DNA of 64,000 nucleotides, taken from the NCBI GenBank assembly GCA_032622095.1, contig CP136069.1:47406194-47470193 (forward strand). The letters are read 5' to 3'. A program made the translations under genes and the position numbers. Below the pieces are notes generated by a model. It saw nothing but the letters and a program-made list of their open reading frames with translations, searched no databases and was not told where the DNA came from. Positions within the stretch are counted from its first letter, which is position 1; the number at the start of each line of letters is the position of its first letter. Source of the stretch: Siphonodentalium dalli. Its lineage: Eukaryota; Mollusca; Scaphopoda; Gadilida; Siphonodentaliidae. Below are positions 3,404 through 44,497 of this stretch, in pieces.

Positions 3404-5815
3404 CATGTTCCGAATTTGTGTCAGCCTACTACACAACTATCGTCTCTTACAAAGAGCGCCTATGCTTATATCGTCCAAACGCAGACGATAATACCGATCG
3501 TTATCAATTAACTCTTTAGCGACGGAAGCTGCGCTGGTGCAGCATTAAGACCCTGTGCAAGTGCGTTCTCGTATATGGGTGAATATTTGAAAAGTGTACA
3601 ATTTGATGTTACAACCATTGGTCATATAATACAGAAGTGTGTGCAACAGGAGAAAACCAGACAGTATTTTTTCTAGGTACCATGATAATTAGGATGATAT
3701 TCAGGCAAAAAAACTGAACCAATGTCTGAGCTGTTGGATTTTTGCAGAGCCAACACGAGTCCGTGTCATGAATTTCTGAATGTTCCTTTTCTACACTGAA
3801 CAGTATAGACTATATTTTTTCCCTGAAGAGATCAGATAAATCTCACATATTCAATCTAATTTGAGTCCATGAAACTTGGAACAAAACGACTATAACTGGA
3901 AGATGCACTTTCTTCATTCAAACATGAAAATATAGATATCATTGCTCCTGTTAGCAAATTATGTGTTACTCCTGTTACTTATAGTATAACAAGGAATTAT
4001 ATGAGGGTCCAAAGTAGCCTTCTAGAGAAACCTGCCACCAGAGGGAATGTCACCAAATAGGTAATCCCATCAAAAGTCGAAATAGTGGTGATTTGAAATC
4101 ATTTATGCATACCGGAGCACACGAATGAACAAATGGGGCGAGTAGGTTATTTGTAAGTCAATCCTGTTACCGCAATATCATTTCTTTCATCATTGTCCAT
4201 GTATCAGGAATACTTTTTTCATATTCTAGAATGAGTCTTGTATGCAAAACATGAGTGTTTAGTTTTCAAATCCAGATACATTTTTAGAAATTTGTCATTA
4301 ACTGCCATATATGTCACTCCTGTTACTGTCACTCCTGTTACTTTTTTGGTAACTGGAGTGACAGTAACAGCTGCAACAGATATGTGCAATGAACATTTAT
4401 TGCCAACAACCCTTTGATTGGCCAGTTTTTGTCAATGAAGATGACCACATGTCAATAGTCATCACTTTTCATCACAAGAAGGAAATTCAATATAATCCAT
4501 TTGACAAAACAATGAACTAATATATGTTTTATATTTGTTGTTTTGTATCTTGCAAGCCCCCCCCCCCACATTCAGGCCACGGTCAATTTCATTAAATTGA
4601 TAGCACAGTTCTGTTCAAAATAAAGACCCGAAGAAACGAAGTCTTTATAGAGCTTCTAGCTAAGTCTTAATGGAAAAAGTCACATGTGTCCTACTAGTAT
4701 GGAAGAGTCAAATCGATATGAATGATTTGGTATTCCGGTTTGATTCAAAATAAGATTTTATACTATATTTCACAAGAGTCACATTAGAGATGCAAGGACT
4801 AGTTTTGGTGGCTACAGCAAAATATTTTGATATTTATTCCAAGTTATACCACCAACAAGCAAAACAGTTGCACACTTTTATAAATATTCTTAACTCTCAA
4901 CATAAACTACAGACAGACTAATTTATACAGGGTGAAAACCATAACCTAATCTTTATCTGAATCAGCATATGAGTCCGGTTGTATCCATCTGTTGATGCCC
5001 ACCAGTCGAGTGCCAGCCAGAGTGTCGACCTTGCCTAACATGGTTTGAGTTTTTGCAGAAGATGATCACATAGAACAGCAAGATTCTTTAGCGACATAAC
5101 ATTATTGTGTACCAAAATTCACCGTATATGGCCACACTGTGAAAACCAGGAGGGTAGTTCCTGTTACCAAAAATGTCACTACTGTTACCGATGTCACTCC
5201 TGTTACAGTGCATATTTATATTTTGTTTAAAAAATACTCATACAAAAAACACAGGTATTATTATATTGTGTTTGGTATAAAGTGTCGATACTTATGCAAA
5301 TATGGTCAACTTGGAGCTCTTGCGTTCATGTCCTGCAGAGTATTCAGTTTTGTACTTTTATGCAATAAATGTGTGACCCATGCTTATAGAGATTTTAAAC
5401 ATATTCGCTATGATGAGCTTATTCAAGCTCAATTATTTCCAAGAAGTAACAAAAGGTAATAACAATAAATATAATTTAGTTGGATGAAATGACTGTTATT
5501 GGTGTAAGCTGATTGTTGTTTGTTGGTAACAGGAGTGCCATAGTTTACTTCTTTGCATAATTAAATCATGTTGCCGTGGCAATAGGAATAAAATTCCAGC
5601 GCTCCGAAGCAAACCCTAATTCATTGTGAGTCATCAGGTTCGACATGGAAATGTTTTTTTTTGTGAATTTGAACTTTGAATTTCACGTAATGCAATCCTC
5701 CAAATTGTACTGTTTTCAAATATTCACCCACATATACGAGTCGCCTCGCATATATGAGCATGAACTGGTTTACAATATCAAGGTAAATATTGTTAGGCCA
5801 ATGCATTGTCTTATA
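3404..5815. repeat. inverted-repeat-flanked region with recurrent GTCACTCCTGTTAC motif
   Basis: A segment at about 3562-3606 (CTCGTATATGGGTGAATATT then an AATTTG-ending part) is the reverse complement of about 5690-5731, which suggests the ends of one ~2.2-kb mobile unit. A left-edge TTAACTCTTTAGCGACGG at 3510 resembles the neighbouring piggyBac-type MITE tip. Between them the 14-mer GTCACTCCTGTTAC or a close variant recurs: near 3965, 4170, 4314, 4329, 4360 (inverted), 5155, 5170, 5190 and 5525 (inverted). I see no protein of known family. A poly-C run lies at about 4557-4567. Confidence 0.45.
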
Positions 5816-40100: not shown

Positions 40101-40565
40101 GAATTGCCATAGTATATATATATATATATATATTTTTTTTTTAAAGTTTTTATTGATCAAGATTAAATGTATATAAATATTGTAACAAGATTTGCAAAAA
40201 CAGATCCCACACAAACTCTTTCATCCCCAGTCTATCAGTAACTTGCATACATCCTTTCGCTCGCATGCTCTTTCACTCATCGCGACAAGTTTATAATTAT
40301 ATACGTTTCTGGTATGGGTCCCGTAAGCTCTGTTAGACATAGGTTTAGTCAAAGAGCTAATATCGGTAGGTTCAATGCTTATAAGATATTAATTGTGTAT
40401 ATATAGCTCTTTGCTGAGTATAATGGGATTTTGATTGGTGTTGAAATAAGTTTTTTCCCTTTCTGGTGGATCAACTCGGCGGTTTTTCGGCACTTATTCC
40501 TCTGGTCAATACTTGTGAGTTTAAGAGGTAAATTTGGTTTTTGGTGGGAACGATATTTTGATACG

Positions 40566-43500
40566 TCATGGTTTGTTTGCTTCTGACGTTTTGTTAAGAG
40601 CTTCAATGATTAAAAACCAGTTTTTCTCAAAAGAGGGTAATTTCATTTGGCACTGTGCCAACAATTTCTCCTGTAAATATCTAGATTGTAGTTCTGATAG
40701 AAAGGATTTTAGTGATAACATATCAGGATTAAATTTAGTTTTATATATGTATTGTTTTATCAGTAGCCAAAACAGATTCATCATAGAGTTACCGCCCATT
40801 GATAGGGATCCAATAATTGCAATCTTTCTTGTGGCTAACAAGGCGATACCATTTGATTTGCACCAAATAGTAACATCATTTATAAAGTTTTTTACAAGCG
40901 GACAGTCCCAAAAAATATGGGATATATCTTCATATGTTGTGCCGCAGCGATTACTTAAATCATTTTGTTCTAGGTTGACCATTTTAAGAAATTTCCTTGT
41001 GGAAAGTATTCTATGATTAATTCTATATTGTAACCACCACATTTCCGTGTCAGGCGTCGTGGTGAAAGCAAGCCGGTTGTAGTTTTCCCATTGAATGTTA
41101 TTATCCTCAAATTCAGCCTGCCATTTTGTATGGGATTTTGGTACGATATTCATTGAATTTAAAATTTTGTAGAAGTCCTGTCCATCATGAGTATTGTTCA
41201 ATGGGATGACAAAATTACTTGGAAGGAAATGGCTTTAAATACGAAATAAGGGTTGGTTGAGCTTTTGTGCCATAGCTATTATTTGTTTCCAGATGCTGTT
41301 CATTGTCAGAAAATCTGTACGTATATGATAACATTCGAATAAAGACTGTTCTGTGTGTAATATGCCATCTCTTTGAAACAAGTCATTTATATATATAATT
41401 CCTTTTTTTCGCCATGAAAAAAATTTAATGGTGTGTCCTTCCAGTTTTATATCGGGGTTGTTCCAAATAGTGCATTCCTGAAATCGATTTTGTTTCTTAT
41501 TTTTTTCTAACATATTTGCAAAAGCCAGTAGTACGTCATGCCAGAAAGGATTTTTCACGACATTAGCTTTGTTTTTTAGAAAAGCATGGTTGTATGTCAG
41601 AAATAGGTGGTCTTTGGTGATAGGAAGGTCGGTTAGGGGTGTCCATTTTGAACTTTTCAATAACAATCGTCTCACCCAAGTTATTTTCATTGACATGAGG
41701 AAATTGTTTACATCTACCATTTTCATTCCACCGTGAGAGTGGTCTTGACAGACGAGTTTTCTTTTTACTCGGTCCCGCTTGGAATTCCAGAGAAAATTGA
41801 ATAGTATTTTTTCGAGTTTGGTCATGAAATTGTTGTTGGGGTTAGGCAATGCGATGAATAGGTGAGTTAATTTGGGGATAATGATGGATTTTATAACTGT
41901 TATACGACCAAATGGGGTAAGTAGTCGATGATTCCATGTTTCTGTTAATCGTTAATTTCATTCAGCTTATTTTCAAAATTAATCGACATTTTGTTTAAAG
42001 TAGTATTAAAGTTGATTCCAAGAAGATTAAATGAGTCAGCAAATGTGAGATGCAGGTCCGGACATATATTTTCTTGCCGCCCCACCATGGATCCAATCCA
42101 CGACGCCTGACACTTACTCGCATTGAGATTGAGTCCCGATATTTTAGCAAAGGCATTTAGGGTGGAATAGGCCTCACTCAGACTACTTTCGGAACCGTCT
42201 AGAATAAGTGTCGTGTCGTCTGCGTACTGCGTTAACTTAAATTCAAAACCATCGAGGGTAATTCCTTTGATTTTTTTAATTATTTCTAATCATGAGAGCT
42301 AGGATTTCTGCGCAAATCAAAAAAATGTACGGAGATATAGGATCGCCCTGCCGACAGCCTCGACCTAGTGTGAAATGTTGTGATATGTGCCCATTTATGA
42401 GTAAGGAAGAGTTAATATTCGTATAAAATATTGAAATCCATTTTTTTATCGTTTCACCAAAGTTGAAAAATTCAAGACATTTGTGCATGAATTTCCACGA
42501 TACAGAGTCAAATGCTTTCTCAAAATCTAAAAGTAGTAAGAGGCCAGGAATTTTCTTCAAGTTAGTTTGGTATATAAGATCATAAATCAGTCGTGTATTG
42601 TCTCCTATGTATCGGCCCTTCAAGAAACCCGTTTGGTCCTCGTTAATGATATGGGGGAGAACATGTTTCATCCGCTGAGCTATACATGCAGATGCCAGCT
42701 TATATGAGCTGTTCAATAAGGTAATCGGTCTCCAATTTTTTAGAAGATGTCTGTCTTTGTCTTTTTTGGGGAGAAGAGTTATAATTCCTTGTTTTTGTGT
42801 AATGGAGAGCTCTCCTGATTTATAGGACTCATTCAGAGATTCACATAAAATAGGCCCAGCTTTCGCCAGAAAAGTTTCCAAAATTCATACGGAAATCCAT
42901 CCAATCCACATGTCTTACCATTCTTTGTTTGTTTTAATACTGCAGACAGTTCATGTATGGTGATTGGCCCTTCTATACTATCTGAAATATCTTTATTTAG
43001 TTTCAAAACGTTATTGTCGAAAGTGGCAAAATGTGTCTCGGACTGAGTAGTGCATTTTGAAGTGTATAAAGTTTGATAAAAGTTACGAGCTTCTTTAATA
43101 ATGTCATTTTGGCAGGTTAGTAACTTCCCATTTGAGTCTATCAGTTTGGTCAGGGTTTTGGATATATAATTACGCTTTTCCAAATTTAAGAAATATTTTG
43201 TTGGTTTCTCGCCATCCTCGATCCATTTTGCTCTAGATCTTATCATTGCACCCATTGTAGCTTCCTTTCTCATATCCATTAACTCGTTATCGACTTTTTG
43301 TATCTCTTCCAGAAGTTTCACCTTCTGTTCAATGTCCGACCCATTCCTATCAACCAATTCGGTAAGATCATATTTAGCTTTCTGTAGAGATTCTTCTTTT
43401 GATTTACGCTCTCGTTTTCTGTTTGAAGAGTAAGCAATGGTAGCCCCTCTTATATCCAATAAAAGTGAATATAGAAAAAGTCTTTTGCTGATATCACATT

Positions 43501-43956
43501 TACATGTATGATGAGGGGAACTATCTAATTCGTCTGTAGTGTAGTTGTATCGAATCTTATTGGTTCCAATGAGCTCATTCATCATATCGATATATGTTTT
43601 GTCTCGTAGAAGTGAAAGATTAAATTTCCAAAAACCCTGACCCTTCTGGTGAGTATTTAATGTTAGTGATAATGTTATAATCGAGTGATCGGATCTACAT
43701 GTATATCCCGGCAGTATATTTGGTTTCTCTCCAATTAGGCTTAAGATATCATCTGATACGAGGAAATAGTCCAGCCTCGCCATTTTTATAGGTGACTTTC
43801 TTCTCCAAGTGAAACGCTTAAGTTCTTTATTATTGGATCTCCATACATCAATTAGGTCGAACCTATCGACAAGACTATGCACCGCCTCTTGTGCGCGTGG
43901 ACTGTTTGTATGTTTATAGTTGAAAGTATCGGACGTTTGATTTTGAACCAAAAGAA
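40566..43956 (-). pseudogene. L1/Tx1-type ORF2 remnant: endonuclease C-part, RT, C-terminal domain
   Basis: Reading on the - strand: VQNQTSDTFNY and FDLIDVWRSNN of the endonuclease, RLDYFLVSDD, then CRSDHSIITLSL (catalytic SDH). A long basic linker with KWIEDGEKPTKYFLNLEKR follows. RT block 1 has GLDGFPYEFWK, LKNWRPITLLNSSYKLAS and DQTGFLKGRYIGDNTRLIYD. Then motif A LLDFEKAFDSVSW, motif B GRGCRQGDPISPYIF, and YADD at 42215-42226. Then the FLWNSKRDRVKRK thumb and GGMKMVDVNNF, and a C-terminal knuckle RCGTTYEDISHIFWDC. Frameshifts near 42880, 42270, 41850 and 41220 break it. This spelling is diagnostic of the L1/Tx1 side of LINEs, distinct from the other two copies here. Confidence 0.88.
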
Positions 43957-44069
43957 AATGCGCCACGGCCGCGAACGCAGTGGGGACATCGAGGCGACCG
44001 GACCCGAAGGCCCGGCCGATCGAGGCGTCCACCTTCTCGCTCGGTCGGCCGAGGCTGAATTCCCCGGAC
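43957..44069 (-). other. GC-rich 5' chimera segment resembling 28S rRNA (D2 region)
   Basis: On the - strand this starts GTCCGGGGAATTCAGCCTCG and ends GGCGCATTTTC at the join with LINE sequence. It is far more GC-rich than anything around it. At 43995-44018 it folds into a fully paired 10-bp stem (with G-U pairs) capped by a TTCG tetraloop, typical of structured RNA. GGAATTCAGC near the start and GCGCAYTTTC near the end recall the D2 expansion segment of animal large-subunit rRNA. The rRNA identity is my recognition from memory and needs a search. That it is foreign to the LINE is clear from position, composition and the flanking duplication. Confidence 0.55.
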
Positions 44070-44497
44070 GAATTGCCATAGTATTTAGTGCTAGGTGTAT
44101 ATGGATACCAACGCCAAAATCGCACCATCATGTTATTGGCATAGCCGTACTTACCAGACGGTGGTGACAGAAGGGGTGTTAAAAACTTGGTAACTCATTT
44201 TGTTTTTAAATATGAATTATAATACACAGAATATATAAACATAAAATACAGTTTAATATGCCAGTTATTCAAGTTAATCTAGGTAAAATTTTTATATATT
44301 AACCGGTAAAAAATTCAAAATTTGCAATATGTGTGTCCCATAAACCCATAAAACATATATGTAGAATTGGTCATGAGCTATGGGGATAAGAGACAGTGTA
44401 CACATTTTCAATTTTCAATATTGAATCGGGACCCGTTTGTTTAACAGCTATTAGATACGATTTGACCTGAGTTAACTACATCAACTGATATGGTACA

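Follow-up and report, generated by a model that had tools for sequence, protein, structure and literature searches.

A truncated L1-like LINE headed by a 28S rRNA fragment, both enclosed by one pair of target-site duplications

Results

Organization of the insertion

The window, that is, the whole 64,000-bp stretch of DNA analyzed here, carries a composite insertion in which a GC-rich block adjoins the 5′ end of a truncated LINE. The features of the insertion are as follows.

40101–40115, no strand: target-site duplication, copy at the LINE 3′ end, identical to 44070–44084
40116–43952, minus strand: 5′-truncated L1-like LINE with a broken reading frame, starting inside ORF2, 5′ of the reverse transcriptase
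40116–40142, minus strand: A-rich tail at the LINE 3′ end, terminating in (TA)n, read directly from the letters
43952–43953, minus strand: 28S/LINE join, with no added base and no overlap; 28S ...GCATTTTCT is followed by LINE TTTGGTTC...
43953–44069, minus strand: 28S rRNA fragment, D2 region, 117 bp, sense to the LINE, assigned by similarity to 28S pieces
44070–44084, no strand: target-site duplication, copy adjoining the 28S fragment on its 5′ side; TTC (44070–44072) is common to 28S

An exact word search found only two occurrences of the 15-bp duplication, GAATTGCCATAGTAT, in the window, starting at 40101 and 44070, and this single pair encloses the 28S fragment together with the LINE, with no copy of the duplication between the two parts. 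When random 60-bp pairs were drawn from the window, a shared word of at least 15 bases appeared in 1 of 20000 draws, a total that also counts the skipped pairs lying less than 100 bp apart. An earlier note on this DNA, made from the letters alone, had described a LINE bordered by identical 15-bp target duplications, and this was borne out at 40101–40115 and 44070–44084. A 453-aa stop-to-stop frame (42833–44194, minus strand) runs through the target, the 28S fragment and the LINE, and the 28S block is without stops in the LINE reading frame; this is probably a chance effect of GC-rich DNA.

Similarity of the GC-rich block to 28S rRNA

The G+C content of the block (43953–44069) was 69%, compared with 37% for the window. 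Among the 63883 stretches of this length in the window, 11 were equally G+C-rich, all of them on the 28S block. A 10-bp stem with a UUCG loop was predicted in the block, and the whole fragment had a predicted folding energy of −64.1 kcal/mol (z −2.96). These values agree with the earlier description of a very GC-rich block containing a paired 10-bp stem capped by TTCG and oriented in sense with the LINE (both are on the minus strand); the length of ~113 bp given there is corrected to 117 bp.

A search of the genome with the block plus 19 extra bases matched 11 places, including the block itself. The 10 other places showed 85–97% identity over 35–124 bases, and four of them started exactly at 43953. 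One locus, L001 (C5:9407500-9412500), matched the entire block at 93% identity, with a 4-base insertion. The Rfam family LSU_rRNA_eukarya matched positions 941–2060 of L001 with 416.8 bits (model positions 1–1148); the first bases of this match look unrelated to 28S. The block homologue in L001 falls in a variable region, in inserted and poorly aligned columns between clearly aligned conserved cores, and the homologue in L006 likewise lies within an LSU match. We take the region to be the one named D2. When the block was aligned with eight other pieces and counted by eye, it departed from their consensus at 3 of its 117 positions.

The fragment alone had no rRNA match in the Rfam scan of the window, and at a lax threshold the segment 43900–44120 gave only miRNA and snoRNA matches, far below the cut-offs, and no rRNA; hence, the 28S identity runs through L001 and its relatives. 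A complete 28S gene was not found among the best 40 of 3301 candidates, and may exist elsewhere or be unassembled. A search for the 5′ part of 28S with L006:1-660 returned mostly a dispersed repeat (65–97%, best 40 of 4657 candidates). Judged by these similarities, the block is a fragment of 28S rRNA from the D2 region. The resemblance to 28S D2 suspected in the earlier note is thus supported by the 10 other 28S pieces and by the LSU match surrounding the homologue in L001, and the comparison it proposed with the genome's own 28S led to dispersed 28S pieces, though not to a complete gene.

The LINE and its boundary

The ORF2 pieces of the LINE matched the Pfam family RVT_1 in two parts (3e-25 and 2e-8) and zf-RVT below the curated cut-off, and no Pfam family was found for the 372-aa piece adjoining the join or for one further piece. 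Hand translation of other LINE copies gave VICGDWN just upstream of the cut, which would fit a putative apurinic-type endonuclease at the ORF2 start. Of the solved proteins, the LINE-1 ORF2 protein was the most similar to the reverse transcriptase, with 88.5 bits against 54.2 bits for the best R2, and by this similarity, rather than by a tree, the LINE is L1-like; the Tx1-group membership given in the earlier note is putative.

The boundary was located with window positions 41000–43956 as the query, for which the best 40 of 1520 candidates gave 42 alignments, 41 of them non-self. Of these 41, 31 started exactly at query base 5, that is, at 43952, and none started before it. Upstream of 43952, six other copies read ...GTGGTGATTGGAA, which is ordinary LINE sequence and not the GC-rich block; the join region was readable in all six, the N letters of L010 lying much further upstream. 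The alignment of other copies suggested as a check in the earlier note therefore shows a normal 5′ sequence that differs from the block, and with the similarity to 28S pieces, neither outcome that the note had named as refuting was observed. The 5′ truncation stated there was confirmed, with the cut inside ORF2, and the truncation point moves from ~43956 to the join at 43952/43953.

The LINE differed from the aligned other copies at 3 of 393 columns. Other copies also end in A-rich tails, that of L026 likewise in (TA)n. An exact repeat of 13–15 bp was present at the LINE edge in three of eight truncated copies, with up to five repeat bases running into the LINE, and none was found at the edge in the remaining five, one of which is L033/L034, whose 3′ end was not located. 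As a separate observation, the upstream sequences of copies L011–L015 diverge near position 2915, partly by indels, right before a common ...GTTTTTCTTTCAGC, which resembles a 3′ splice site.

Empty paralogous sites

The target of the insertion is part of a dispersed repeat. A search with the joined flanks (best 40 of 48 candidates) gave 59 alignments, of which two were the insertion's own flanks, 38 were other places matching across the join, and 19 were further downstream pieces of these 38 places. All 10 repeat copies that were aligned from the 38 had an uninterrupted target and lacked both 28S and LINE, and no gap appeared where the flanks meet. Each contained one copy of the target 15-mer, which was identical in L054 and differed at one or two positions in the other nine. 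Over 71 columns around the empty join, 60–64 were identical in nine copies and 47 in L051, which is without downstream sequence. The sites compared here are thus paralogous repeat copies rather than alleles of the insertion locus. Since one pair of duplications surrounds both parts and the empty sites contain neither, the simplest explanation is that 28S and LINE entered together, and the insertion is almost certainly a single-event 28S/LINE chimera.

Edges of the 28S fragment

Across the join point, three of four 28S pieces read ...GGCGCATTTTCT/GCCGGGC (L006 differs further in) and six other LINE copies read ...GATTGGAA/TTTGGTTC, while the window reads GGCGCATTTTCT/TTTGGTTC, with zero shared and zero extra bases. 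Neither the GATTGGAA before the join in the six LINE copies nor the GCCGG after it in the four 28S pieces has anything in common with the partner sequence, and the TTTTC/CTTTT microhomology previously placed at this join is thus not there. At the outer edge, the target ends in ...CAATTC and 28S reads ...AAAGTTC/GTCCGG, giving a 3-nt overlap (TTC), which alone is weak evidence.

Other rRNA sequences in the genome

A 32-base pattern spanning the join, searched with up to three mismatches, had one occurrence in the assembly, at the insertion itself. Beside other LINEs, rRNA-like sequence was found in 0 of 14 loci in the sequence examined; these loci comprised eight truncated copies (~700–800 bp upstream) and six longer copies, including one whose upstream sequence is mostly N. 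In a tblastn search, in which distant LINE clades could be missed, a relative of the LINE protein was found in 0 of 17 loci with 28S pieces, that is, in 17 of 20 rRNA-bearing loci, L016, L017 and L020 being left out. As there was no recurrence in the LINE loci or in the loci with 28S pieces, a regular mechanism has no support; the insertion is one accident, with no habit demonstrated.

Short pieces of 28S lie scattered across the genome (L002–L009, L018, L019 and L041–L046). An exact direct repeat of at least 8 bp near the ends of these bare pieces was found in 0 of 18 alignments (16 loci), and one of 7 bp in three, by a crude test in which the match to L001 defined the ends, although L018 and L045 seem to continue as 28S. 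Our guess is that the bare pieces are repair filler rather than LINE products.

The genome also contains repeats built from rRNA, at L016 (C5:163008500), L017 (C9:87011600) and L020 (C6:11298500); in the C9 cluster, the repeated units lie ~2.5–3 kb apart. A 28S-like stretch (Rfam, 179–233 bits; 81–83% like L001) was present in four such units, preceded in three of them by an 18S-like stretch of ~320 bp (71–79 bits). This 18S-like/28S-like repeat does not look like ordinary rDNA.

Discussion

Origin of the chimera

The reverse transcriptase probably switched from the LINE RNA to 28S during target-primed reverse transcription, and we infer that the join was made at this stage rather than between RNAs beforehand. 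The LINE enzyme would have nicked the target and copied the LINE RNA from its 3′ end by target-primed reverse transcription, left this RNA after ~3.8 kb, inside ORF2, and resumed on 28S rRNA, whether intact or fragmented, at an internal site in D2. After 117 nt of 28S had been copied, the end of the cDNA would have been attached to the far side of the target, perhaps aided by the 3-nt TTC overlap, leaving the insertion within the 15-bp duplication. The sense orientation and the 5′-truncated LINE make a template switch consistent with the published class of such events.

The same structure could be produced if a piece of 28S had first been ligated end to end to a broken LINE RNA, for example by an RtcB-type ligase, and the resulting chimera had served as one template for retrotransposition. 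A seamless join without microhomology fits this order of events, as does the combination of an internal 28S end with an internal LINE start, which suits joined fragments, and a study of human chimeras gives two routes to chimeras in sense orientation, one of them RNA ligation, with RtcB named (PMC13174262). Ligation requires, however, two cleavages with compatible ends in addition to the ligation itself, and we consider it a somewhat unlikely origin. The earlier note had presented the insertion as an rRNA–LINE template-switch product; the single-event 28S/LINE chimera stands, on the evidence of the duplications and the empty sites, but the seamless join fits RNA ligation equally well and does not single out the switch.

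Two further histories appear highly improbable. Because the genome contains scattered bare 28S pieces, one of them might have been present before the LINE inserted beside it, but the duplication encloses both parts with no copy in between, and both parts are absent from the empty paralogous sites; the same observations led us to reject the idea that the block is an older rRNA insertion next to the LINE. LINEs are also generally known to be able to carry upstream sequence along, and the insertion might be the daughter of a progenitor LINE that already had a 28S head. Against such transduction, the assembly yielded a single occurrence of the join pattern, and a parent cut inside ORF2 would be defective.

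A template switch is our preferred reading. The insertion is a clear example of its kind: paralogous sites without it exist, its boundaries are exact to the base, and its rRNA source is recognizable; its exact ends are usable for comparing template switching with RNA ligation. The 28S of the host seems lophotrochozoan, and if the host is an invertebrate, the insertion supports the generality of rRNA capture during LINE insertion. It is conceivable, though doubtful, that non-mammalian L1-like LINEs capture internal rRNA like human LINE-1, which would make this an ancient enzyme trait, and that the repeats of 18S-like and 28S-like units at L016, L017 and L020 originate from captured rRNA.

Comparison with known chimeras

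Chimeras of 28S and LINE are already known from human LINE-1, and the present insertion adds a case in an L1-like LINE. For the human lineage, the published study (PMC13174262) gives 18 28S/LINE-1 chimeras, 83% of them in sense orientation and with a median of 269 nt; as their origin it proposes either RNA ligation or template switching. They resemble the present insertion in that 28S lies at the LINE 5′ end, mostly in sense; the human lengths are 50–482 nt. In that study, duplications are described for U6 and tRNA chimeras. The human 28S fragments often start near position 3,636, whereas the fragment here is from D2, near the 28S 5′ end, and the human partner is LINE-1, whereas the LINE here is L1-like by similarity.

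Chimeras of U6 with LINEs of the L1, L2 and RTE clades have been described in vertebrates, with template switching as their origin (PMC4476161), and share with the present insertion a 5′-truncated LINE, a sense RNA at its 5′ end and flanking duplications. In that report, internal entry was never seen for U6, whereas entry here is internal, as reported there for U5. A 28S/LINE chimera in an invertebrate was not recognized in the open literature among the matches listed.

The process had been regarded in the earlier note as one of vertebrate L1 mainly, a view that is too narrow in light of the L2 and RTE clades (PMC4476161) and of a fungal LINE (PMC2104539). In the fungus Magnaporthe grisea, LINE chimeras including WEIRD-MGL have joins without microhomology (PMC2104539). 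These are similar to the present insertion in involving a non-vertebrate LINE and in lacking microhomology at the join, and a tripartite chimera is flanked by 14-bp repeats. They differ in number, with 33 bipartite elements against a single case here, and in the switch motif GCC*A/U, which is absent from the LINE context GATTGGAA/TTTGG. HaSE3 of a moth is a 5S rRNA/SINE chimera family for which template switching has been proposed (PMC3272025). It is similar in its invertebrate host, its rRNA part and the proposed template switching, but it combines 5S with a SINE in a whole family, whereas the present chimera combines 28S with a LINE in one insertion.
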